Assembly: GCA_012934845.2 (NCBI GenBank)
Contig: WNNJ02002717.1
Coordinates: 434,001-498,000, forward strand
DNA length: 64,000 bases
Direction: 5' to 3'
Source of the DNA: Pomphorhynchus laevis
Lineage: Eukaryota > Acanthocephala > Palaeacanthocephala > Echinorhynchida > Pomphorhynchidae
Shown: one piece after another, positions 3,736 to 62,699 of the stretch
How positions within the stretch are numbered: the first letter of the stretch is position 1
Layout of the letters: each line of letters begins with the position of its first letter
Made by a program: the position numbers and the translations under genes
The notes under the pieces: generated by a model
The model's database searches: none
Told to the model about the DNA's origin: nothing
What the model saw: the letters and a program-made list of their open reading frames with translations, nothing else

Positions 3736-6700
3736 CTAAATAATTTCAATGAATTAGACTCGTTTTAGGCCTGGTAATATAATCAAAAATAGTGAATTTC
3801 AGTTAATTTTCATAACAAAACGGTTTTTATCACAAAACAGTTGATTAACTGATATAATTTTGTAATTTAGTAATTGAAATAATGAATTTATAAAAATTAT
3901 AAATGAATTAATTATTATAATGAATATTAAATATAATAACTGATTAATATTAAATACTAATATTTCAATTAAAATGTTGATTATAATTTTTATTATGTTG
4001 ATTATTAATGTTTATTATGTTGTTGTTTGGTTCAGAATACAGCTTCTTTGATACAATACAGCTTCTTTGTTAAACTGCTTGTTTGGTTTAAGTACAGAAT
4101 ATGTATGGATGCCAAATATTATTATTGCCTACATGTGCTCTTTAATTTTAACAACTGTATTATTACAATTATTCCTTATGTTTCGCTAGCAACGCTTGCA
4201 GAAGAGTGAAACTTTATGATTTAAACTGATTACTATTAAGAGAAAAATTCTGATTATTAAACGATAAATATTACATACAATAATCGCTGGTAATTCTCTT
4301 CGGCTGTCTACGGCCCAGCTGATACAATCATCTATCGAAATAGATCGTACCGACTACACGCAGAGTCGTTTCAAAAAGCCGGGATTTGGCTTCGCGCAGT
4401 GCCGAAACGGAATTAACGCCCACACAGTTGTGCATCCTATCTGGAATGTGGCTTGGGATTCCCTTGCACGAAAAGGACTATCGATGCGGCCGTGTCACGC
4501 GAATGGCGGATAAGGGAGGCATACACTCGCTCACTTGCTAGTACGATGGTTATCAATGACTGCAGCATAATTCCATCGCAACTGCACAATCAGCCCAAAA
4601 GTGTGAGGAATTATCCAGGACTAAGTTGAACGTCCCGCAGACATTATCTTTTAAAGAAACTCTCCCCTTGTAGAAGGGGTATCCATAAAAATAAGGTCCC
4701 TATAAATATAAGGGTCCCCTCATATTTCCCAAGACAGTAAATATAAAGACAAGGTCGAAGCAGCGGAATACATGTTTTAGCCGCCGTAGTGGAGACCTTT
4801 GGTCGTTTCCACTAAATAATATGAACGGGACAAGCGGAATCAGATACGCTGTGACGGTTACACGCTTATATCAGCGCATATTCATCGCACTAATGATTAC
4901 AACGCCAAATCGAGCAGATTTGAAAAAAGCTTTAACCCTTCGAAAAGTGTAGATGACGAAACGATCATCAACAAATGATCACTTAGAGAGTGTTAAAGCC
5001 GATATCTTTGCATACAGCCTCAACTGTACTTTGAAAACTGTATTAAATGAATATTGAAATGAGTTTTAGGTTTCTTGCTCAAATCTTTTAAATTTTATCA
5101 TATTTTTGTAAAAAATGATCTTTAAACTTCAATATCTCAATATTTCTTATGAGCTCATTTTAAAGTGAAAATGAACATTTTAAAAATCATTGATAGTTAG
5201 CTAATATTTTATTTAACATGTAAAAAAATGAAACTAAATTGTAATACAAACCTTTTCTTGCTCCTTTTCATAAGACGCCAGTAATGTCTTGAGAGAAACA
5301 TTGGATAGTTCATCGTCAGTCATGTTTGTAATTTCCGATCTGAGCGAAATGTTATGTTCAGGTATCAATCGAAGTATAACAGTTCTGTAGTTGTCTATCA
5401 TATTTTGTTTAGCACTGGAGTGATTATCGCTACAGTTTTTAGTGATTTCCTTAGCGGAGCAAGTTGATTTCTCAACGATGCCCTTATCACTTAGAGAATT
5501 ATCTTCAACCGATGCACACGACTTATGCTCACATTGATCCTGCAAAATGTTATAAAAGTGTAAGTGCTGAAACTATAATGTACTGCATTATGCATTCAAA
5601 AATAAAGCTTTTCGCGTAAGCATTTATAAGAATTTACAACCGACAAATAAGCGAACACAAAACTCAGGATACGCATTAAAAAGCTGTTAGTTATATGTAC
5701 AATATATATTTTTATCATTTTGAAACAAAGAACATACAACATTATCTCAAAATCTTTTGAATAATTGCAGCTTTATCGTAATTTTGATAAATAAAAATAA
5801 TATATTTGTTAAATTAATATATTTGGCTAAATGTAAAAGTAAAAAGGTTCGTTTCTATAACATGTCTAATTTTGATGCAAAAGCCTTATGCAAATTAAAG
5901 TGATTTGCAGAAAAGACAAATCATTATATGCGAGTTATGATAACGAGTAATGAAAAGATTAAGATGGGTAATGCAAAGTGAGCAGGTGTTGTCCAAAAGT
6001 GACAAAATAAATGCAAAGGAGACGGCTACTCTATATCATTGCAATATATTTGTTACTGAAATGATATAAATTGCAAATTTATCAATATTCTAGGCTTATT
6101 GTAAAAAAAGTAAAACTTCAAAGCCATCATGACCTATTCGAAAATTCGTATGTGATATTAATCCAATTGTGCCAATATTTTACATTTGACCTTATGCTTG
6201 CATGCTAAAAATGCGAATAAATTATAATCTAATAAAGTTATGTTTTATAATAAACTTTTATAAATTATTAAAGCTAGATCAAATAAAATAGAATTTTTTA
6301 TTGATATTTCGCTAACTTCTGTTAGCATCTTCAGAAAATTACTTTTAATGTCGCACGTCAACTTTGCACATGGTGGAATTAAATAATATTCTTTGCAGGC
6401 TCTTAAAAATATAATGGCCATTTCACATTTCGATCTATCGATTTCACACATTTCTCAAGATGCTAACAGAGGTTAGCGAAATATTAAAAAAAATTTTCCT
6501 TTTCTCTGATCCAGCTCCTTTAATTATTTATCAATAATGGATCATCATCAACTAATTAACAATTTAATGATTTATGTTGGTTATTTAATTAACAACAATA
6601 AACTTATCTTAGTGTCAGGAAGTAGTAAATTAAACGATAACATTTTGTATAAATTAATGCTCAACAAATAAAAATATAATTTTGATATTAATTTTTTTAA

Positions 6701-9700
6701 TCTTTTTGTGCTATAATATTAATATATCTATCAATATATATTATATTTAATATATATTATATATTAATTTAATATTTATTATTATATTATTACATTAATG
6801 TATGTATAAATTTACAATTTTATAATTTATTTTTTGAGTTCAACAAAATCATAATCATAATTTATTATAATAATATAATAAATTATATTATTTTATAAAA
6901 TTGCTATCTTTTGTCCACTTTTGTTATATTTCATAACAAAATCATAATGGCCATTACAAATATCAAGAACTTAATTAGAACATAAATAGTTTTATTTTGT
7001 TTTCTTTAACGAGGTTGTCTATTTTTGCATTTATTACGTTTATTAAATTGTGCAATTTAAAGAATTGTGTGATTTACAGAATTTTGCGATTGGTCAAATT
7101 GTATATTAAAAGTGTGTGTTATTGAATATGTTTAATGTTTTATTAAACTGCCAATTTAATAAAGCATATTATTCACTTAAAGATTTCAGGTAAAACCTGA
7201 AATCTTCAGTAGCAATTTTACAATTCTGCAAAAATTTAAAACAAAAACTATATATATATTAACTATAAACATAATATTAATATTGATTTATTAATTATTA
7301 TATTGAATACAAATATTGAAAAATACAATTTACAAATTGTAAAAAAATATTTTTTAACATTTACTCCTGATGATGATAGCAGTAAGCTATTGAAAATCCG
7401 ATAAAATAAGTATTTTACTTTACTCTCTCCACTAATAAATAATCCAATCTGAGTGAACAATCAATTTATAATATAAACATGATATAAATATTGATTTATT
7501 AATTATTATATTGAATACAAATATTGAAAATAAAATATCACAATATTTTTCAATTAACATATTTACAAATATTTAATAGAAATGTCTAAATATTTGATCA
7601 TAATATTGTCTAAATATTTGTAATGTCATAATGTCTAAATATTTGATCTAAATATTTATTAATTAAATATTTATTTAATTATATTAAATAATCATATTAA
7701 ATAATCATATTTGTAATATCATAATGTCTAAATATTTGATCTAAATATTTATTTAATTATGACATATAGACAAAAAGTTGAATTTGCCATAAACCAAATT
7801 TAATATTTTATTGTCATTATTTTAAATTTACTAAAATTATCGATATTGTTATCACTGCAAATACAGGAAAAAAATGATTGATCAGCAAAGTTTTGGACTC
7901 TTATAATTCAGCGTAGCGATCAACTACAAATTTGAATTGTACTTCATTTTAATTAAAATGAAGATTTTAATTAATATATTACAAAAATATTTTATACATA
8001 AAATTTTTAATCAATATTGATCAAAAATATTAATTAAATAATATTTAGTTAATAAAAAATTATAAATTTTTATATATGTTAAGACAATTGCTAAAGTAGA
8101 TAATTGCTAAACCTTCATCATTCCTCTAATTACTGAAATTTATGCTTTCAAATATTCGCAGAAGCAGAAAAAATGTGTTTAAAAAATGAAATTTCTAAAG
8201 ACATGCAAATTAAAGAGCCACATGCAATGCAACGAATATAATCAATAATTACAATGGGCAAATATTCGGTTGATGAAGTTGCCTGATCTTTATCCAGTGC
8301 AACATCAGCAGCAGGGTTCATTAGCAAGCAAGGAATTTCTTGCTTAACCTGCGACCAGCGTTTGGAATCTGATTCGACTGCACTATCACTTTTGTCGAAA
8401 ACAACTTGGGATCTTTAAATAAATTGCAAATTATTAACAAAGATTAGCTTGCAAGTGATACCGGTTGCCTTTACTACAAACGCGACTATCGTCTTTTTGT
8501 ACAGTCGCCTCTAAACAGGCTACAGTTTTGTGATGTTGTGAAATAGGTGCTTGCTTTCCGTTTCCGAGGGTAGTGGAACCACTGTTAAACTGTTTTCTTG
8601 GATTTACCAAATCTTCCTTAAACAACGAATTTGTCTTTCTATTACTATCAGTTAAAGACTTAAAATAACACTACGATTAAAATTTGACTGCGATTAAAAT
8701 TTTAAATCACTAATGTTTTTGTATAATTAGGTATTATTACTATCAGCAATTAATTAAATAATAATAAAATCAATTTTATTAATGATTACATTGATTTCAA
8801 AGTTAGAAAATACGAATATTATGTTAATATATTTTAAAAATAGACCGATTTATTTATATATTTTTGACTTAAACTAAATACTATCCTATTTTGCAATAGA
8901 CAAATGGAAATAATAATTAAATATTGAAATTAGAAATCACTTAAAATATATAAAATTTTAACAATCTAATAAATACATTAAATTTAAAAAGTTTCATTTA
9001 ATTATAAAATTATTACATAAATATTATTAATTTTTATATAAAATTATATTTATATAAATACTATAAATTGTTAAACAAACAACAAATGTTTATATTGTTT
9101 TTAATAAAAACTAAACTAAAATATTTAAATTTATTTAATTCTAAAGAAGTGAAATTTATTATAATTTTTTACATTTTTACATTCAATATATTTACAGTCA
9201 AACTTTACTTTTTTAAACAACTAAATACAATAAAAAAATTTAATAAAATCAAATTAAATAATGCTGTTGTAAATAATTTTTACAACAGCATTTGGTATGG
9301 TCTGCTTACGCAAACCATACCAGATGTAAGGCTGGTCACCTGTGGATGAGCGTGCGCTTATTCCTTTCAGAGGTTTACTAAGGATTAAGTATTGTCGAAG
9401 TTGTGTAGCTACAAGGCCACACTGATGAGACCACGCTGTAGTGATGAGTAGACTAAGATCGAAACGCCTCATTGGGGGCTAAGCGTCTGTGGTAGGCGTA
9501 TTCCGGGTCAAGCTTCCCGACGAAGGTTGTACAAAAGCATGCAGGTTTATACTTTCCTGATCGTGTTAAAATTCATATAATCACTAAATGTAGAATGACG
9601 GAAATTTTTTTAGCATTTGCGCTGGAGCTTTGTTCGTGCTTTGCAATTGCTGTATACAAGCGTGTTGCTTGATCAGCAAACTCAGTTAGCTGACGATGGT

Positions 9701-18700: not shown

Positions 18701-21700
18701 AAATTTTTGATTTTGAACCGTTTTCTATAAAGATTCTGATTAAAAAAAATAAAATTTAATTAAAAGAACAGTTGTAACCATAAATAAAACTCAAATACAT
18801 TCTATATTTTATGTAAAAAATATTAATTCCAGTTGATTTGTTATTTATATTCTCTGTAAATACATATTCTATATGAAAATATATTAGATGACAGGTATTG
18901 TTACAAAATGGATTAATATTTTGATTGCGATACTGAAAATATAATTTATCACGCGGTTTTTGTGGTATAAATTCAAAGTTATTTAAAAGTTAAAAATTAA
19001 GATAACGTTTACATTTATTTAAAGGCATAAAATTTATACAACCTACATATTCAGCCAATCCAAATTTATTTCATATATTCACAGAGAAAATTAAGTAAAA
19101 GTTATATTATAAGAAGAAACATGTGACGAAATAAAATTAACTAATGAGACTACTGGACGAATGTAAAACAGCATTTATAAGCATCAAAATCCTTGACAAA
19201 TAAAGATACCATAACAAAATAAACAGGTTTATGACTAATCTAAACTTACTGATTAATAAAATGGTTTTATGGTTACAAATAATCGATAATTATGGAACTG
19301 GATCAAAGGAAAGACGAAATTATTTTTGATATTTCGCTAACTACTGTTAGAATTTTCTGGAGATGCTAACAAAAGTTTGAGAAATATCAAAAATAATTTC
19401 GTCTTTCCTTTGATCCAGCAAAAAATAATTATTTATCAAATAATGGATCAGCATCAACTATTTAAAAACAAAAAAATAGACATGAAAATACTAAATAAAG
19501 GTCATTAATCGACACTTTCAATTTTCATTATGAATTAATCAATAATTATATAATTATCTTTAAAGTTATATTCTTGAATCCTGCAGCAAAAGCATCTTTC
19601 TTAACAAACATCCTCTATTGTTAGATATCTGGTCGTAAAACGACTGTATGAAAATAAAATTTTGAACCTGAAAGAATTCAGGTAATTTTTATAATCTTAC
19701 ATTTAATTTGTCTATATTAAACAGTTGCATATTCAAGTTTTAAAGTTATGTGACAATTTGATGTTTACTAAAAAATGATATCTTATTCATTTCACATCAG
19801 TTATTTTGCAATCTCATTTGATGATATGATCAAATTATGATAAATTTAAAAATTGGTTTATTCATAGGACAACTTGATCCCACGCTTGTAAGATATTATT
19901 TTGTAATTTAATAAACAAATCATACATATCATTGACCGATTGACGTCCAATCTTTTCGTACATACGAATTAATCTGCTGTTGTTATATACAAACATCCCA
20001 TCTTGCCGACATGCGTCCAAATTTAAACCGAATACAAAATGCATACTTTTAGGTTCTTTTACTGTTCTAAATTTGAACTTCAAAGTTAGTATTTATACAA
20101 AAAAATAATTATAGACATTTATGATGACTATCATAAATGTAAAGAATAATTCAATTTGTAAAATCTCTTGGCTAATTTGCAAGTAATCAGGTTAAGATTA
20201 ATGTAATTACAACATTAATTTATTGATTCAATTAATTCATTAATTCGCATGCAATCAGTAAGTGATTGAATCATCAATTCCCCCAATTATTCAAGCGATA
20301 GAAAAATTTGTACTTTAAAAATTCAATAGAAACACTTTAAACTTTACTGCAGAGCATAATTCGCTCATAAAAATTTTTATTTTCATAAAAATTCCTTAAA
20401 ATTCCCTAATTGATTTTATTTAATCTCCGCTAATTGATTTTATTTTCTCAAAATGTATCAAATGTAAAGCGATAAGATATATTAAAAAATCGAAGATAAT
20501 TATTTATTAATGATTCAATATAATTATTTAATTATATATTTAATTACTAAATAAATTAATTAAATTTATCATTTATCGGTTTATTATTTGACAATATAAT
20601 TAATATCAATCGAGAAAACAAGTAAAAAGTCATTTTATTTACGATATTCATAATTAATGAAATTAATTATGAATATTATTATTGATGTCAATTACATCAT
20701 TATTGATGCCATTGTAATTAGTGATACGTATAGCATTCGGTATTCCTTAGAACCTGAATATTTTAAAATAAACCGAAATATTTCATTATACTGATATATC
20801 GAAATTTAAAATCTAACATAGACTATCAAAGTGTAAAATATATAACATGAAAAAATGCCAGATTATAAGATTATGATGATATGTAGTCATTTCAAGTCAC
20901 CGAACTAAACATTCGCGCTAGCAGCTTGACGAAAACATGGAATAAAGGCGGTACAGTTTAATATAAAATTGAAATTTTTTACAACAGTTAATGAACCAAT
21001 TGTACGTTTTTCTTCATATTAATAATATAATTAATAATAAAATAATAGAATCTCTTTTTCATATTAAAGTAAGCAAATACATTTTTATATTGATAGAAGT
21101 CATAGACATTTTAAAGACCGCTTTTCAGTAAAGTGTTACAAACATATCTAGCAAAGCTGTTATTCCTAATTAATTATTAATTACCGAAATTTTAAAAGAA
21201 AAAAAAAGACATTTAATAAAAACAAAAAACATTTAATGAAAGAACACTATTTAAGTTACTACACTTAAAGTATATAATTAAAATACTATACATATTAGTA
21301 TTATATTATATACATTCTTTAATTCTATTATTTAAACTCAGCAATAATAAATATATAGTTTTACGTAAATTCAATAAATCACGCGTTCGAGTTTTCTTCT
21401 AATAAGACATTGATATCATAGACTACATGATTATTTAATGAAATGACATGATTTTATCACAAGGTTGAATTGATAAAATGGCAAATTTTGTATTGATCGA
21501 CGGAATTAAGCGGTAATTAAGACCAAGTATTTATGGTAACGGTTATGATCATCATTCTTGACAATTAGAGTTTAAAAAGAGTCGATTTATTCGTGACAAA
21601 ACAGAATACGTTTATAATTTGTATTGTTGATAACAACATCTTAAATGATAAGCTTAAATTTTCTTGGTTATCAAATAGGCAACTTATTACATTAATGAAT

Positions 21701-27700: not shown

Positions 27701-30700
27701 TAGGGTCGTAATAAAGGACGCCAACATATTCCCTCAGAGATTGCCATTCTGGTTGCAAGCTAAATAGAATAATTACAAATGATGAAAACACAGAGTGTTC
27801 AATTGATTATAAAACAATTGCACGATGACAATTGTCATACAAATTTGCTAGTAGGGATCTCAGAGATATATTGGACAGTCACCAGGAGTTATTTGATAAT
27901 ACGCCAGGGTATGTTCGTACGTATTTATATTCTAAAAATTTATTCCTTTTATTGACAAGAAAAAACAAATAATAATACACAAGATTTTTTCTGTCAACCA
28001 CTGGTCCGGATGTCGGGTCGTAGAGGCAGTGTACGAACCAAAATACTCCAGACATCGCGATCATGGGCGGCATACCAGAGTTACCTTTCAGATAGCGCAA
28101 GGCGTTCTTCGGCCAGTTTCGAGATTTGATCTCTTAACCGGTACCGAGGTTAACCTCGAGGTCTCTTTCTAGAGAGTCTTGTCTGGAAAACCCTCAGAGG
28201 AAGGTGATTCCTAGACATCCTCAGAACGTGTCCGAGCCACCTCAACTCTCTTTCTTCGATGTGGAGAAGCACTGATGTTCCTGTCGTTCCTAGATAACTA
28301 TACCCTAATATATTAATCATTCCTTTTCAAGCATATACTAAAAGTATATATTTGAAAAGGATATACTGATTTCAGAATATACTGAAAGTATATGCTTGAA
28401 AAGGAATGATTAATATAGTTGGGTATTGTTATTGGAAAATGAACTTCTCAGAGGTTAGATCTGGTATCATATATTTTTGAATAATATTTACACACTTGAT
28501 TTGCACACTTGCATGTGTGTAAATCAAAAGTGTTAATTTATTATATTGGTGTGAATAAAAACATTAACTTGCTTAGTATATTGTATATAATGTGCACTTT
28601 ACAAATGCTTTATCTTAACTATAAAAACACCTTATTCTAACTATTAGCACTTGTTCATGCTGATCTCTATTCCTTTTTCGAATACACAGAAATTATTTAT
28701 TAGTAAAGTTATAAAAGTTGATTATTATTTTAAATTTAAATTATTTTTATCTCTGAGCAAATTCACACATATCAGTTTGAAAGCAAAACCGCCACATATA
28801 AAAGACGTTCAAAAAACTTTGAAAAATGTAAAACTATCTGAAAACCTACAATATTTAAAAATCTTTTATTAAATAAGATTTACCTTCTTAAACATGTGAA
28901 CTATTATTAGCCGATAAATCAAATCTTTAGGTGGAACGAAAGTCTTCAAAAAGACATCCAACAAAAACAAAATAAATTTATTACAATTTATTATTATAGG
29001 AGGACTAGCAGACGCACATCCTCGTGCCGTCTGCCGGTCCTTCTTTGCATCCAGTAGTGGGAGGTGCATAGCACTGATGAGTCAAAGCAATGATGAAACG
29101 GCACTAATTATCGGATTGTCGATTCTTTCGTATATGTCACATTGATATATAAACAAGTTCCCACGGATTTCTCTCACTTTTCTCTTAAAAATAATAAGAT
29201 GACAGATAAATAGAGAGAATGTGCTGGCATTAGCCAGTGCTCTTAGCTAATGATCCTTTTGGTGAAGCATGTAATACTGAGATTGCTAAAGCATGTCTAG
29301 CTCAAGGTATGTTCTGACATACACGTGCCGTCTGCCGCTCCTCCTCTGCATCCAGTAGTGGGAGATACCTGGCACTGATGAGTCAAAGCAATGACGAAAC
29401 GGCACTAGTTATCAGATTGTCGATTCTTTCGTATATGTCACATTGATATATAAACAAGTTCCCACGGATTTCTCTCACTTTTCTCTTAAAATATAATAAG
29501 ATGACAGATAAATAGAGAGAATGTGCTGGCATTAGCCAGTGCTCTTAGCTAATGATCCTTTTGGTGAAGCATGTAATACTGAGATTGCTAAAGCATGTCT
29601 AGCTCAAGTTATGTTTTGACATACACTTCCGTCTGCCGGTCCTCCTTTGCATCCAGTAGTGGGAGGTACCTAGCACTGATGAGTCAAAGCAATGATGAAA
29701 CGGCACTAGTTATCGGATTGTCGATTATTTCGTACATGTCACATTGATATATAAACAAGTTCCCACGGATTTCTCTCACTTTTCTCTTAAAATATAATAA
29801 GATGACAGATAAATAGAGAATGTGCTGGCATAAGCCAGTGCTCTTAGCTAATGATCCTTTTGGGGAAGCATGTAATACTGAGATTGCTAAAGCATGTCTA
29901 GCTCAAGGTATGTTTTGACATACACTTCCGTCTGCCGGTCCTCCTTTGCATCCAGTAGTGGGAGGTACCTAGCACTGATGAGTCAAAGCAATGACGAAAC
30001 GGCACTAGTTATCAGATTGTCGATTATTTCGTATATGTCACATTGATATATAAACAAGTTCCCACGGATTTCTCTCACTTTTCTCTTAAAATTTATAAAT
30101 GAATTATAAAAATATAATTATATTAAACTCAAAAAAAATATAATTTGAAATTATAATTTATTATTAATCTTTTTCTTTATTTAAAAAGGATAAATTATTT
30201 ATCGAAAACGCTTAAATTTTTTTCTAAAAATATTCAAAATTAAACATAGGTTATCTAATAGTCACGTGGCAATTGTAAAGATAAATTATCATGATGATAT
30301 AATCGATAAATGTTTAAACCAACAATAAATACCGTTTTATAGAAAAATAAAAAATAACATTTTAAGGATTAATCGTTATAACATCGTAATGGCATGTCAA
30401 CGCAGTATCAAATCAAAAAGATAATTTGGAAATCATATCTTAACGACTTAATCATTTTATATTTATGAGTACACGTTCATTCATAGTTAACAACAAATCA
30501 AATATATTGAATGTAATAAAATAGTAAAGAGATTTTTTAATTACAAGATCAAAACAATAAAAATTAATTAATTTTAATTAAATTTTAAAATTAATTAATT
30601 AAAATTACTAATTATAAGAAACATTCGATATTTGGCAAAGTGCAAGTATATAATGTTGTATAAAAAATTAAGTTTACCAGTTCCTATAAATAATCTGTAG

Positions 30701-35751: not shown

Positions 35752-38700
35752 TAGTGCGAAAAATCGCTTGAAACTGTGGTCCAGGAGCCAAAACTGGCTA
35801 CGATTGATTTTAAATCCATGTGTGCTGCTAAATAACTGGACTTTAATCATCAGCTCCATCAGTCTAATGTATCACTCCGAGACGCTCCTAACCACCCAGC
35901 AGTCATCGTCAGTCGAATGAAGTGGTTAGGGTGTCTGAGCCTAGTCATCAATACTCTAGCTCTCTAAATCTAAAATATGCATGGTTCTTCGAAAAAATGC
36001 CACATTTAAATACTTTTTGGTCAGTTCTAGATTAAAGCATTCACAAAGAAAACTGTAAACTATGGTTGTTCACAATTCCATAAATCCTGATGCAAATCAG
36101 CAAAGAAATAATTTCATCAGCAAGCTACAGTATCATACTGGCTTTTAATATACAATAAAGATTATTTATAAGAATATCTATTTGTAAGAATATTGTACAT
36201 ATGGCTAACTGCGAAGACTGCAAGAAAAGCAGTCTGATATGATCACATCATTATACATTTGAGAGAATAATCGGCGTAGCGATATAAAAAATCTTAGAAC
36301 CACAAATGACTGAATGGTTGATCATATAATAAAATATTCATCTGTTTGCAAATCATCCAATAAATCATTGGCAATTGTTTTATATTTGATACAGCTAAAA
36401 ATGAAGCATAAACATATTGGATGGTTCATTTTACGATATAAATATGTTAAATACGGATCAATGTCTTAAGCTAACAGCTGACGAATGAAAACAATTATAA
36501 CAATACCACTGCAAACTTCAGTGGTATGAATATATTCTTATTAATGTTTTATATCTGACCAAAAAACATTGGTATAGCATAAAAAACTCATTTTTTCTTT
36601 TTTTGTAGATTTTTGTGAACAAGGCGATTAGCCGAAACGCATTAAAAAATTTTCGCCACTTATTCCGGTTGAAACCTTGCCAATTAATTATAAGAGTATT
36701 GCAAGGGTGGATTCCGGGAGGTTATTTATCTAGTTATACATACAGGTTCAATATATCAATTTTCCTTATAAAATTTTTCAGTGTTTCAAACTTATATACA
36801 TTTATCAATAACAACTGTCACAAAATGGAACAGCTCGTATTTGTTCTATTTTGTCTTTTTAGGTATACACATTTTAGATATACTATTTTTCTCAAATGAA
36901 TAAAATATCGAAACTATAATTTTATTTCATATAAAAATAAATTTATTATATTTTAATGTTTAAAATATTTAAACATTTTAAAATAAATAAAATATATTTT
37001 AAAAGCGAAATATTCTGACTATATTTAACAATTATAGTATTATCACGATATTTCGCATTAACCTTTGTTCCACATATTCGCAACATAACAACTGCTAATT
37101 TTATTTCTAGTATAAATGAAATGATGTTCATTCTTTTATGATGCAGAGACGACCGGTAGACGACTGCGTAAACTAACAATGAATCATCAACGTGATACAA
37201 ATATCACACTGGGAGTATACACTGGCTATACATGACGAAACGGCACATCATTAGGCTGTGTTTGTTTTGTTTCTTTCAGCTCTCCATCCCTGACGTCATA
37301 ATTTGCCGAAAATGAGAGTTATTAATATCAGAGTAGTGATGTAGTGACACTACGTGGCAGTTATTGCGCTTTTAGTCATATATATTTTTACGCACACTGG
37401 TGGCAATTCCTTGTAGCTTTCAGGACCAGTCAGTGTATACTCCCAGTGTGATATTCGTATCACACTGATGAGTCATTGTTAGTTTACGCAGCCGTCTACC
37501 GGTACTATCCGCATCCAGCAGTGAAGGTATCCGTCACTGATGAGTCTAAACAATGACGAAACGGCACAGCATTAGGCTGTGTTTGTTTTTTGTTTCTTGA
37601 TAACTTGATAACATTGAAATTGATCGTGACGATCTTTAATCATTATTATGATCCATCGTATATTATTTATTAATCAATTCATAAAAACTAAATAAAATAA
37701 ACTTACTTTATTTAGATCTAATATATTAACATAGTTTTATATATTTTAAATTTCTATTTTATAAATAATTTAAACTGCTGTACGTTAAAAATCAAATCAA
37801 ACACGAAATATAACATATATAAATCATCAAAATATTCAAATATATATTTAAGTTCTGAAGGGGAAATTCTGTTGAATAGCAAAAAATCTGTGTTAGAATA
37901 AGATATGGATCCAGATAATTATATTAAACCAGACAAAATATTCAATTAATAAGGTACACTAAATATTCAATTTCATCAGAAGAAACACGTCGTTAGCTCG
38001 TATTTGGCCCCGCTGTTAAATCGAGGAATAGATGATAATTATTAATTATTAATCTTAATTATTAATTTTTTATTCATTATTTTTAATTTATAAATAGTAA
38101 AGAAAACGTAGACTCGGTAACTGATCTGATCTTTTATCTTTGTATATACAATTTTTAAAGTTTTAAGCATGGATAAATAATCTGTGATTAAAATAATACC
38201 TTTATATGCAAAGAATCAAATCAAAAGATAATACCTTTGCTAGCGTTTTTCCTCCTAACAACAAAGGTTCTCCCGATTGTACGTCGAAACTCGGTATCGG
38301 AACTATGACCTAATCGAATATTTGTAGCGACAAGATAAGTTGAAATTATAAGAATGTAAATAAGACAAATAATGTGTATTTGACGAAAACTGTGTAATTT
38401 TCCGATCTGTTAAATTTTTGTAAAATGTTTCTTTCTGCAAACACTCATTTGCATCAATATATAGTATAACTTATTAAGGTACAAAAATAAAAGTTTAAAA
38501 ATATTATAATGTAAATACATCAATGATTTCTATAACCTGCAAGTAAGAATTGGGAAAATTATTAAATCAGCATTGACAGTTAAACACAATCACTAATTTC
38601 AATTAGCCATTTGTTTCTATGGAATCAAAGAAACGACAATTTATGTTATTCGAGAAAAAGGTCCGATCCAATTTTTGCTGATATCATCATCAGAAATACT

Positions 38701-53582: not shown

Positions 53583-56515
53583 ATTAAAAAAAGGATTTAT
53601 TTTAAAGTAGCAACTGCGTGCCAGCGCATGCTTACATGACCACAACAAAACAAGACTGTAAATCAGGTGTCGAGAAGGTGTGAACGGAGGAGGTGTTTGA
53701 ATGTGATAAAGGAGGGAGCGCGGCGGACGTCGAGAGGGAGTTGATTCCAGGCTAGTGAGGCGGCGACGAGGAAGGATCGGAGACCGTAGTTGTTGGAGTA
53801 ATTAAGAACGTGAAGTAAGAGGGTATGACAAGAACGAAGCGATAGCGAGGTGGGGCGAGTATCGTCTAAGAAAGGAAGTTTGATGAACGATGAGGAGCCG
53901 ACAGCGATGAGACGAAAAGTAACTAGAAGGCGGAGTTTGATGCGGATGTGGATGGTGGGCCAGGAGAGTTGGGCAAAATATGTGGATGTGTGGTCGAAGC
54001 GACGGAGACGAAAGAGCACTCGAACGGCGGTGTTGATTATTCGTTGTAGGGGTAGGATGATGGATTTTGGAGAATTGGCGAAAAGGCTAAGGCAATAATC
54101 GATTTTGGGGAAAAGAAGCGATGAAAGAAGAGACATACAAGAACGAAAGTCGATAAGGGGGCGGATACGGAGGATGTCACGGAGAATTAAGTTAGACGAG
54201 CGGACCTTGTCACGGACGAAGGGTTTAAGGGAAAGGTGATCATCGAAATGGAAGCCTAAGAAAGTGAGATTGTAGACTATAGGGATGATCGATGAGGCAA
54301 AAGATACAATGGGAGGAGATATGTTTGGTTTATGGGGAAGGATCCACATTATTTTGGACTTTTCGGGGTTTAGAACGAGATTGAGATTGGAGAGACGTTT
54401 GTAGATAGAAAAAGACAGTTGGAGGCAGAAATGCCGATATCGTGGATGCGATGTGCGGGTGCATGAGCATAGATTAGAATGTCATCGGCGTATTGCATTA
54501 CCTTAAAGGAGTAAGGTTTGAGAAACGGAGATAGATCGCCAAGCAGAAGAGAGAAAAGCAGGGGACCTAGGACTAAACCTAGTGGGACCCCGCAAAAAAT
54601 AGGGATGGGAGGGGAGGATGTTGAATTAGAACAGACGCGAAAGGAACAATCGGATAGATATGAGGCGAACCATGCTACGGAGGAGGAAGAAAAGCCGTAA
54701 TCATAACGAAGACGAGAAAGGAGGACGGAGTGGTCGACAATGTCGAATGCGGAGGAGAGGTCAAGGGAGATGAGAACACTATATAGAGCCTTGTCTCGAG
54801 AAATGAGTAAGTCGTTGTACACTTTTATGCATGCGATTTCTGTCGAGTGATTAGAGCGGAAAGCGGATTGGAAAGGAGGGTACAGATTGGATGAGGAGAG
54901 ATAAGCGTTGATTTGTATTAAGATGAGGCGTTCTAAGAGCTTTGAAAGAGTAGGGAGTAGTGAAATGGGGCGATAGCTAGAAGGAAGGGAGGGGTCGAGC
55001 GATTGTTTTTTAAGGAGGGGACGATCGATTGCGGATTTCCAGTGTGAAGGGAAGATACGACTGCGGATGGACGAGTTAAACAAGGTTGTGAGAAATGGGG
55101 ATATCGATGAGCATATAGATTTTAATATGTGGGTAGGCAGGGGATCGGCAGGTGAGGTTTTGTTGGGCAAGGACATGAGGACAGATGATACTTCTGTAGG
55201 TGAGACAGGGAGAAGATGAAAGAGTTCCGGAAGGATGAGAGTAGACTGGGCAGAGTGTGTATAGGAGTGAGATTGGGGTGTGAGAGAGCAGCGTGGATAC
55301 TTTAGTCTGGAGAAATGACGAATAATCATTAGCATTGATGTTGCACGGCGTAAAGGAACGAGCCAGGATTGAGTTTAAAGTATGCCAGAGAGTCTTAGAG
55401 TTGAATGAAGTGATGATTTTATGCTGCCAGAAGGAGTTGCATTTTGTACGTAGTAGGTTGAGATGAGACCGGCGAAGAGCAAGATAGGAATCACGGAAAG
55501 ACGGAGTGATCGAGCGGAAATCGCGTCTGAGAGAGCGGTGAGAGACTCGAAAAGCATGGCGGAGTCGACGCATTGAGAGTAGACATTGGATGTCAAACCA
55601 TGGGGCACGGTGCAAGCGACGGTGTGGGTGAGACTTGAAGGGCAATAGAATATCGTGAGTGGATGTGAGTTCAGAGTCGAAAAGAAAGGCGAGATCGTGA
55701 GGAGATGAATATTTTATTGTGGGTAATGATAGAGACGATTTGATTAAAGCAGAGCAAAGGGAGAGGTCAAGATTTCTCCAAGGGCGACGTAGGATTGTAG
55801 GTGTGTGAGGAGGGGTGTGGTTCCGAGTGAGATCAAGGGTGATAAGAAAGTGATCGGATAGACCAGGATCAGAGATGGACAGTGAGGTGTAGGCAGCAAA
55901 ATGATCGGGGACAGCGATGATGTCGAGTGCCCCACCAAGTATATGTGTGGGGGCAGTGGAGATTAGTTTGTAATTGTAGTTGGATAGAATGTTGATGAAG
56001 CGGATGGAATCTGTGGAAGAGGGGCGGTCTAGGCGGATATTGAAGTCGCCTAGAACGAGTGAAGGGATTGAGGACAAAGAACAATGAGAAAGGAGGTCAG
56101 CGAGTTCGGTAAAAAATAACGCTGTAGGAGCTGATGAACAAGGACGGTATACAATGGCGAGATCTAGAGTGATCGGGCTAGAATAACGACAAGTGAGCAA
56201 CTCAAAAGAGCAAGGACTGAAAGGGGGATTGATTTTGCGAAGAGACGCTGGGTGACGCGCGAATGCGACGATGCCGCCATGATTAGAGGATTTAGAAGGG
56301 TATGAGCTGAGGGGGAGGCGGATTCGACTAGGGAGCAACCGGCAGAGAGCAGACGGCGAATGGAAAGTCGTCGGAATCTGAGTGCCAGGATTCGGTGAGG
56401 CAGAAGAGATCGATGGATTGCTTGGTGAAAAGGTTGAGGATAAGATCGGATTTATTGAGAATAGATCTAGTGTTGAGGAGACCGAGGCGGAAACCGTGTG
56501 CTGTGGCGAAAGAGA

Positions 56516-57732
56516 CTAGTGGAGAAGACACATAGGAGAGATGGAGCGCCATCGAATTTTTGGACGGGTGTGGACAACTTGAAAATTTCCGTCTATGTTT
56601 CGGATGGTGAGTGATGTTTCGCCGTTTTCCTCGCGACGGCGTTTTTCGATGAGGGCTGAAGAGATTTGAGTGATTTCAGAAATGGCGCAATCGGGGAAAA
56701 TTCGAGTGGTTGAAGGTGACATGAGTTTGAATCGTTGAGAGAGAACAGAAGACGCGTGAGAGCGATGCTTGAAAACAATTTTTAGGAGAGGGGGCTGGGA
56801 AGGATTAGATTGAGAAGATTTGTTTAGACGGATGAATGCGACAGGATAAATGTCCTTGAAAAAGGATGGTTTATCCGCAGGAACAATAGACGAGAGGATG
56901 GATCTGAAGGCGGAAACATCGTGGTCCAGACGTGCTTGTGGAGATAAGGAGTTAGAAGGCGTGATATTAGTAACAATGACGCAACGATCGCGAGAAGCAA
57001 AGCGCTTCCGTAAAGGAGGACGACTGTCGTGAGTAGGTGAGATCACGATAGAAGACCTGTCAGTTGATGATTTGGAGGGATTTGGTTTGACGACGGGAGA
57101 CATAGAGGGTAATGATAATAAAGAGGGTGGCAAGCGATGTGAGGAAAGGTTATGAGTGGAAGGATAGTGGAGATTGGTGGAGGTGATTTTGATTGATGGA
57201 TGCAAGTTATTGAGAAAGAGACGGGAAGGACGGGACGTGGGGTTTCTGGGAGTGAAGATGACATGGAATGGGAAGTGTATATGGTGGTAGGGTCGGTGGG
57301 TGGAGAAAGGACATTAGAAACGACGGGGGTAGTTTGAGTTGACGTGTTGGATGTTGATATGTGCTTATTGGAAAGGTTGCATATTAGTTTGTTGGCACAA
57401 AAACCACATACGAAGTCTTCTTTAGCCTTATTCTTGTCGCAGGTGATTGTTGTCCAGACGCTGCAGTCGTGTATCGAGCACTGTACTTGCAGTTGTCCAT
57501 AGTTGGTGTCGGTCTTAGTTGTTTTCTTACGTCCTCCCATAAACGACGGTTGTCGTCGATGGTTGTCGTCGATGGTTGTCGTCGATGGTTGTCGTCGATG
57601 GTTGTCGTCGATGGTTGTCGTCGATGGTTGTCGTCGATGTATACTGAATCCACTGTATGTTAAAGCCTGACCATAGCTGATATTATGATGGTGCGGAAAG
57701 CCATCACGTCTTCGTCCAATCCTCTCAATCAC
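56516..57732 (-). pseudogene. CR1-like ORF1 with PHD finger and 13-residue repeats
   Basis: Two overlapping frames (57043-57732 and 56516-57205). The N-terminal part holds a repeated RRQPSTTTIDDNH block from the 13-bp minisatellite. Next is QCSIHDCSVWTTITCDK, EDFVCGFCANKLICN, a PHD-like zinc finger as in some CR1 ORF1 proteins, then Ser/Pro-rich sequence. The second frame carries CVIVTNITPSNSLSP and FPDCAISEITQISS. A frameshift near 57050-57200 divides it. Confidence 0.75.
57548..57638. repeat. 13-bp minisatellite, seven units
   Basis: GGTTGTCGTCGAT is repeated seven times without error (57548-57638). As 13 is not a multiple of 3, three units make one 39-nt cycle and all frames read through, which yields a 13-residue peptide repeat on minus. 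Confidence 0.95.
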
Positions 57733-62439: not shown

Positions 62440-62606
62440 ACACGATTAGTAACACACATAACAGAATCTTAATAACTCTCATTTTCAGCAAATTATGACT
62501 TCAGGGATAGTGATCTGAAAGAAAACAGAAAACAAACACAGCCTAATGCTGGGCCGTTTCGTCATTGTTTAGACTCATCAGTACCGGATACCTTCACTGC
62601 TTCCTA
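62440..62606 (-). repeat. Hammerhead family 2, single truncated unit
   Basis: The minus reading from GAAACGG through GCATTAGGCTGTGTTTGTTT and GAAGTCATAATTTGCTGAAA to GAGAGTTATTAAGATTCTG matches the unit at 37231-37345. Confidence 0.85.
62551..62606 (-). ncRNA. Hammerhead ribozyme fragment (lacks cleavage strand)
   Basis: CTGATGA (62581-62575), stem II GTC..GAC and GAAA (62560-62557) followed by CGGCCC are intact, and a stem I 3' strand GGTATCCGGTA precedes. The stem III 5' strand and the GTC cleavage site that should lie just above 62606 are absent, so the unit is not self-sufficient. Confidence 0.75.
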
Positions 62607-62699
62607 AAAATTTCGATAGTCGTACGTAATGAAGTGATGAAAACGATTCTTGCTACTTCGAGAATAAAAGGTGCCGAAGCGTCTCTAGTGACATCCTAA

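Follow-up and report, generated by a model that had tools for sequence, protein, structure and literature searches.

Which machinery inserted the tandem hammerhead ribozymes that lie near position 29,000 of the 64,000-nucleotide stretch of Pomphorhynchus laevis DNA analyzed here (the window), and does their sequence retain a record of the process? To date, metazoan non-LTR retrozymes have been described as low-GC tandem units of 170–400 nt that contain type I hammerheads and encode no protein (PMC7229834; all papers are cited for the portions consulted). The enzyme that spreads them is at issue. Penelope-like elements (PLEs) have been named a strong candidate mobilizer on the basis of common features and co-occurrence (Cervera and de la Pena 2020, PMC7229834).

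A pattern scan of the whole window finds four exact hammerhead cores (CTGATGAGTCAAAGCAATGAYGAAACGGCAC) at 29074, 29375, 29676, and 29975, and two further cores with 2–3 mismatches at 37537 and 62551; the pattern has no match in 100 shuffles. The preliminary description reported four hammerheads with complete cores at 299–302-bp spacing, separated by near-identical bodies. Indeed, the predicted cut sites (Table 1) are 301, 301, and 299 nt apart, and the units are about 95–98% alike. Tandem Repeats Finder places the repeat at 29027–30092 with a period of 301, 3.5 copies, and 95% matches. The GC content of 28001–30000 is 0.369. No frame of at least 150 aa is present in the array, nor is one combining reverse transcriptase (RT) and GIY-YIG, so it lacks the coding of an autonomous PLE. 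This agrees with the earlier view of a tandem, retrozyme-like repeat with one hammerhead per unit and no recognizable protein.

The position first assigned, 29020..30090, holds, but the element is somewhat wider: its borders are set at 28982–30088, between two copies of AAATTTAT. Taken by itself, this lone 8-mer duplication in AT-rich DNA would be weak evidence. The limit of the 3′ tail in this copy is fixed by the duplication, and BLAST places its end at +180 (+1 being the nucleotide after the predicted cut). An AT-rich leader of 18–22 nt is common, with one mismatch, to the window copy and a copy on contig C457 (L013), and a 17-nt ribozyme foldback stands at both heads, perfect in the C457 copy, whose right flank and 3′ end are unlike those of the window copy. 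Both may, as a conjecture, come from one master transcript.

Table 1. Features of the array element and of related copies in the window.
Feature	Position	Strand	Basis or remark
Left target-site duplication, AAATTTAT	28974..28981	+	8-mer common to both borders, read directly; left border shifted by hand
5′ leader	28982..29021	+	array element
Foldback at head	28998-29014	+	17-nt inverted piece of ribozyme 5′ half, 2 mismatches
Hammerhead 1, type III, predicted cut after C29031	29019..29108	+	model R1, 91.4 bits; G10.1-U11.1 wobble in helix II
Hammerhead 2, predicted cut after C29332	29320..29409	+	model R1, 103.2 bits; MFE fold is the hammerhead
Hammerhead 3, predicted cut after C29633	29621..29710	+	model R1, 92.2 bits; G-U wobble in helix II
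Hammerhead 4, predicted cut after C29932	29920..30009	+	model R1, 95.5 bits
Three complete units (301, 301, 299 nt), cut site to cut site	29032..29932	+	cut-site spacing
Conserved body block of unit 2, CTTAGCTAATGATCC..GAAGCATG (CTTAGCTAATGATCCTTTTGGTGAAGCATG)	29544..29574; unit +212 to +242	+	comparison of families A and C
3′ "tail", short (~+121) to long (~+157) terminus	30053..30088	+	two end groups in A and B
Right target-site duplication, AAATTTAT	30089..30096	+	8-mer common to both borders
Family B element, head-to-head, hammerhead 37484-37571 (L039)	37140..37595	minus arm 37140-37227, plus arm 37226-37595	model R1
Decayed family B fragment, without CCGUC strand	62547..62631	-	model R1, 40.2 bits

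The 5′ strand of the array ribozyme is CCGUC, with the predicted cut after its final C. Helix III pairs CCGU with ACGG, the long helix I bears an additional hairpin at its apex, and GUC(A)/(U)GAC form helix II. The core CUGANGA...GAAA is accompanied by H17; helix III is open-ended and helices I and II are closed. Since the open ends sit in helix III, the ribozyme is of type III. A type I reading, with a GUC 19 nt after GAAAC, was rejected because its helix I does not pair by inspection. The minimum free energy (MFE) fold of unit 2 is the full hammerhead, with helix III of 7 bp, helix I, helix II of 4 bp, and C17 unpaired (z −2.29; an equally good fold in 5 of 200 shuffles). For copies 1, 3, and 4, MFE folding does not yield the complete hammerhead, and the G-U pair beside the core in helix II may slow the ribozymes of units 1 and 3. 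A circular fold is barely stabler than its shuffles (z −1.2).

No Rfam family reaches its gathering threshold in the whole window or in six related loci. The best array score for RF00008 is 17.9 bits (E 1.3), in the wrong register and below the gathering threshold of 48.5. The preliminary description had proposed this very search and named a score below threshold as refuting it, and that is the outcome obtained; in our judgment, the miss is a limit of the RF00008 family model. We still regard the hammerhead motif as real, on the strength of a model made from copies in the genome; its catalysis is predicted, and any RNA circle is putative. This covariance model (R1) was built from 92 copies that combine CTGATGA...GAAA with a similar 5′ half. 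It detects six window ribozymes: the four of the array with 91.4–103.2 bits, one at 37484–37571 (+) with 71.5, and one at 62547–62631 (−) with 40.2. Core invariance and model fit of the 92 copies hold by construction, since the copies were chosen for the core and used for the model.

Among these 92 sequences, 86.1% of cells (cells, not evolutionary events, being counted throughout) pair in the type III structure, compared with 85.6 after shuffling, where 17 of 500 shuffles reach the observed value, and with 28.9–56.5% when the structure is slid by 1–3 columns. Cells changed on both sides number 33 versus 18.8 in shuffles (reached by 0 of 500) and 23–38 in slid structures, and the covariation score is 0.147 versus 0.139 in shuffles (24 of 500 reach it) and 0.036–0.103 in slid structures. 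Two further measures, the pairs with two-sided change (215/500) and the pair types (392/500), are not above shuffles. Pair 18-57 is the clearest (GC 54, AU 20, GU 8), and its AU form belongs mainly to family B, described below; as the change is mostly between families, it is perhaps one event. RNAalifold returned no consensus structure for the 92 sequences.

In metazoa, hammerheads are typically of type I, and in plants of type III, with an insect type III noted as in preparation (PMC7761336); type III has also been reported in delta-like RNAs, termites, and dipterans (PMC7936874). Its occurrence in an animal genome is therefore not new (PMC7936874, PMC7761336). The match to metazoan retrozymes first proposed holds for the tandem noncoding units with a hammerhead in each (170–400 nt, low GC, no protein; PMC7229834), but not for the ribozyme type, which is III, not I. 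Plant LTR retrozymes have a type III hammerhead and are non-autonomous, as the array is; their units, however, are ~700 nt long, compared with ~300 nt and AT-rich in the array (per PMC7229834). No report of type III hammerheads in tandem repeats with PLE scars was found in the consulted portions of the retrozyme and Penelope literature, and none of an acanthocephalan hammerhead ribozyme in the literature searched, subscription papers being largely outside both searches. The consulted part of the P. laevis genome paper (PMC7310846) mentions neither Penelope nor a ribozyme.

An endogenized viroid-like or delta-like circular RNA is a highly improbable origin. Delta-like circular RNAs and dipteran genomes also contain type III hammerheads, and the extended helix I with its extra hairpin is common to them and the array (PMC7936874). 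Yet helix I of the array starts with ~6 bp and helix II has 3–4 bp, the array is a tandem mobile repeat, and the GCCR/YGGC loop pairing of that work (PMC7936874) is not seen, loop II lacking a YGGC motif. In addition, the array has no long frame, and its minus polarity contains no hammerhead core by pattern (L001), the model giving only 13.7 bits (E 0.4). A pattern scan of IMG/VR returned no match.

Sequence similarity places the window array, as a single copy, in a dispersed family, A, with a unit of ~301 nt. A genome search with the array finds at least 57 matched pieces in the 249-Mb assembly (40 of 1203 candidates scored), and the core pattern has 57 exact matches genome-wide, compared with none for the reversed pattern. 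Family B (~321 nt) is represented by 162 matched pieces, many of which overlap because the B query is itself partly inverted. The two families have the ribozyme in common (about 79–88% over 60–80 nt), and BLAST finds no match between their bodies. Family C (L027, L087) is related to A but has diverged from it. One complete C unit agrees with the A consensus by 75–85% in four ribozyme bins, 80–95% in the bins of the body block, 35–60% in most other bins, and 35% in the bin of the CCGU strand; on this one C unit, the body block is conserved between A and C at least as well as the ribozyme.

Other features of these units were also observed. The body block looks like a broken hammerhead core, CTAATGA..GAAG. 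The family B unit (e.g., window 37440–37480) has a GUGUGAUA-UUCG-UAUCACAC hairpin followed by UGAUGAGUC, which is half a hammerhead core and lacks GAAA; the real ribozyme lies a short way downstream. The B element at 37140–37620 is near-identical (100% as rounded) to G000:C1189:154444-154924, by either recent segmental duplication or an unmerged haplotype. As to the host, a reading frame in locus L045 agrees over 368 aa with a P. laevis protein at 100% identity. An insect host, considered at first, was discarded on this identity, on the absence of TTAGG repeats, and on zero matches to Pfam 7tm_6 and Chitin_bind_4, a result that by itself does not prove these families absent.

The borders of 50 elements were compared for target-site duplications. 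The longest word common to the left and right border averages 7.04 bp, versus 5.11 bp for mismatched borders (0 of 5000 permutations). Words of at least 8 bp occur in 17 of the 50, where 2.45 are expected, and 33 are without one; the longest are 16, 14, 14, 14, and 12 bp, so that the duplication length varies, and some common words are plain AT. For this test, borders were narrowed, loci were added, and the left borders of L001 and L013 were shifted by hand; an earlier run on 22 A elements with wider borders gave 8.3 versus 6.7. These duplications bear on whether the array is ordinary satellite DNA grown by unequal exchange, with the hammerhead as a passenger. Apart from the likeness of tandem units within the array, which such exchange would produce, the evidence makes this very improbable: short arrays lie at dozens of places on many contigs, they have preferred termini (below) as well as duplications, and the ribozyme is common to A and B while their bodies do not align in BLAST.

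Element ends were scored relative to the cut site in 34 A and 25 B fetched loci, less the plain segmental duplicates noticed; some kin remain (e.g., L073 with L074), and each end, being read off a BLAST alignment between copies that are ~80% alike, may be wrong by several bases. Two opposed outer arms, minus on the left and plus on the right with their 5′ sides central, are present in 18 of the 34 A loci, a share inflated because six loci were fetched since both strands matched, and in 9 of the 25 B loci. Pairs with both ends between +85 and +210 were used, which leaves 16 of the 18 A pairs and 8 of the 9 B pairs; those dropped are L004 (15, 129) and L092 (222, 111) in A and L062 (233, 27) in B. 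The two arms of L004 are 97% and 86% like the window unit.

The 3′ ends of the usable pairs form two groups in each family: 98–139 (mostly 116–128) and 152–201 (mostly 159–172) in A, and 92–131 (mostly 123–131) and 149–167 (mostly 149–159) in B. The gap between the modes is, by eye, ~40–45 nt in A and ~29 nt in B. A short arm faces a long one in 14 of the 16 A pairs (permutation p 0.0067), 7 of the 8 B pairs (p 0.089, not significant alone), and 21 of 24 pooled (p 0.0005). The cut-off of 140 between short and long was set after the ends had been seen, and L029 (152, 139) is mixed only under it; at cut-offs of 135 or 150, 20 of 24 pairs are mixed (p 0.002). Among the 16 A loci without two opposed outer arms, 11 end at 92–127, one at 143, and four at 159–180; among the 16 such B loci, five end at 123–131, six at 152–155, and five elsewhere. 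The arms within one element are 89.5% alike on average, compared with 83.1% between elements. An arm resembles its own partner more than the mean of the others in 15 of 17 comparable elements (L020 is not comparable), and the partner is the best match of all in 4, which speaks against chance nesting.

Head-to-head arms with both outer ends on the 3′ side of the unit would also be expected of a terminal-inverted-repeat or foldback DNA transposon. This origin is, however, scarcely credible, as the outer ends are asymmetric in the 21 mixed pairs, the arms are unequal in length, the duplications vary in length, and 16 of the 34 A and 16 of the 25 B loci are without two opposed outer arms. Near-identity of the units had been taken to imply recent amplification or gene conversion. 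With dispersed arrays, target-site duplications, and preferred 3′ ends, gene conversion is not required, and these features point to reverse transcription of an oligomeric RNA.

Rotifers are relatives of acanthocephalans. In the rotifer Adineta vaga, the pLTRs of PLEs stand head-to-head, one of the two bearing a 31-bp tail; duplications are 8–10 bp long, and unrelated sequence has been captured in trans (PMC3846280). The protein of a lizard (Anolis) PLE cuts and extends both target strands, and its two adjacent internal RT start sites correspond to a genomic "tail" of 30–40 bp (PMC11167929). The array families resemble these elements in their head-to-head inverted terminal repeats, partial tandems, AT-rich targets, optional 30–40-bp tail on one arm, and 8–10-bp duplications (PMC3846280, PMC11167929), and the Anolis element also in a hammerhead near the terminus (PMC11167929). 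In contrast, the array families have a pair of 3′ termini, arms that stand head-to-head, and 5′ ends coinciding with the cut site, none of which was seen in the consulted text of the metazoan retrozyme study, from which the word "inverted" is absent (PMC7229834).

The 5′ ends of the copies were mapped with 20 unit queries in four rotations, self matches and starts at query edges being excluded. Of 97 ends, six lie exactly at +1, where 0.32 would be expected if ends were uniform (Poisson 1.2e-6), a crude null, as DNA structure at helix I could also favor breaks there. Counted by element, with the arms of L029 as one, there are five (Poisson 2.3e-5): L029 (both arms), L076, and L096 in A, and L012 and L022 in B. 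The next commonest positions have three ends each, and 91 of the 97 ends are not at +1; with the 20 query units, no position exceeds it. An apparent cluster of starts near +239 and +279 was attributed mainly to part of the body in which the window unit is unlike other subfamilies, and was discarded. By eye, and not counted, an 18-nt opposite arm of L022 also runs from +1, and L007 agrees with +1 if a single missing base is allowed for. The copy in L096 extends from +1 across more than two units; cutting was thus incomplete, and a linear template is probable for it. Copies that start at the cut site suggest that linear, self-cleaved RNA also serves as a template. For the Anolis PLE, ribozyme cleavage is dispensable for insertion in vitro, and no RNA-seq reads end at the cut (PMC11167929).

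These ends bear on the canonical account of a metazoan retrozyme, in which, ribozyme type aside, unit-length circles are reverse-transcribed round and round. The ~300-nt tandem units, low GC, many copies, and lack of a protein are as in that system (PMC7229834). Yet the type III ribozyme is not that of the known family, and the run of L096 from +1 over more than two units fits a linear oligomer better than a circle. We consider this account possible but doubtful; it is not fully exclusive of the Penelope-based reading set out below, with which it overlaps.

GIY-YIG frames above the Pfam cut-off are present in three fetched loci (L082, L084, and L101), and we take these frames to be Penelope-like. 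The frame beside that of L082, by eye a Penelope RT, matched no Pfam family. The genome search for GIY-YIG gave 75 hits, a minority of which were fetched. The top hit, L081 (G000:C1660, around 7878–8102), is a bacterial-type UvrC of 458 aa with UvrC_RNaseH_dom and GIY-YIG, from a symbiont, a contaminant, or a transfer. A short hammerhead-like core, CTGAAGATGCTAACANNNGTTAGCGAAA, has 1176 exact matches in the genome and none when reversed; it is present in L101, with variants in L083 and L084, and resembles the minimal type I cores of PLEs (PMC7761336). Among the ~100 of the 1176 matches listed, neighbors within 1000 bp stand, by eye, head-to-head in at least seven cases and tail-to-tail in at least one. 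In L101, two short cores face each other in an inverted repeat (88.7%) whose limit lies ~50 nt past GAAA, close to the short ends of A and B (~55–60 nt).

In the window itself, short-core pairs stand head-to-head at 6307–6334 (−)/6454–6481 (+) and 19332–19359 (−)/19357–19384 (+), with 0, 1, 3, and 3 mismatches. A decayed non-LTR retrotransposon occupies 53663–57313 (−), with RVT_1 in 54370–55371 and a weak Exo_endo_phos below the cut-off in 55076–56512, and is adjoined by a 13-bp tandem repeat at 57544–57639.

The position of the ribozyme, ~55–60 nt before the short terminus and much as in L101, would also fit repeats that derive, as pLTR fragments or by deletion, from an autonomous PLE with its own type III hammerhead. 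Endonuclease (EN)-like fragments lie near B (L042/L055, overlapping loci; 44.6% over 83 aa, E 8e-18) and near A (L005/L024/L025, overlapping; 62.5% over 24 aa, E 7e-4). We nevertheless regard this derivation as unlikely. No RT-EN frame is joined to a type III copy (frames of at least 120 aa, by eye, in flanks of ~0.4–1.5 kb), the hammerhead-like cores of the GIY-YIG loci L083, L084, and L101 are different and shorter, and model R1 finds nothing convincing in L081–L084 and L101, with only 13.2 bits in L082. The array also differs from PLEs in lacking a reading frame and in its type III ribozyme with full helices, compared with the minimal type I of PLEs (PMC7761336).

The published signature of PLEs combines two adjacent 3′ termini with arms placed head-to-head and short duplications, and from it we infer a Penelope enzyme acting in trans. 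The most economical account of the data would be mobilization in trans by PLE machinery, and on this analysis, the array is probably a non-autonomous, ribozyme-processed repeat inserted in that way. The transcript would contain ~301-nt units in series, and the type III hammerhead of every unit could cut after CCGUC; this oligomeric RNA, in part cut by its own ribozyme, would be the template. The two preferred start sites of reverse transcription would lie downstream of the ribozyme core, at a distance of about 55–60 or 95–100 nt, and nicked target DNA, rich in AT, would supply the primer on either strand or on both. Synthesis of the cDNAs would continue to the 5′ end, whether a ribozyme cut or a premature stop, before they are joined head-to-head. 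The enzyme would be supplied in trans by PLEs of the same genome, and PLEs make up ~15% of the P. laevis transposable element content (PMC7943196). Against a partner among the GIY-YIG loci L082–L084, BLAST detects no kinship of A or B with these three, only 12–16-nt matches with E values of 0.3–0.9.

A wider proposition is that animal retrozymes are satellites of PLEs, in which the cut sets the 5′ end of the template, two RT starts lie just downstream, and priming of both strands yields head-to-head copies; for this, we hold the case to be evenly balanced. If it is true, the insertion scars of the type III repeats would identify their machinery and record ribozyme cleavage, and 5′ ends that lie at the scissile phosphate in the genome would document cleavage in vivo without recourse to RNA. 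The marks at the repeat edges would thus suggest the machinery that spreads retrozymes in animals.
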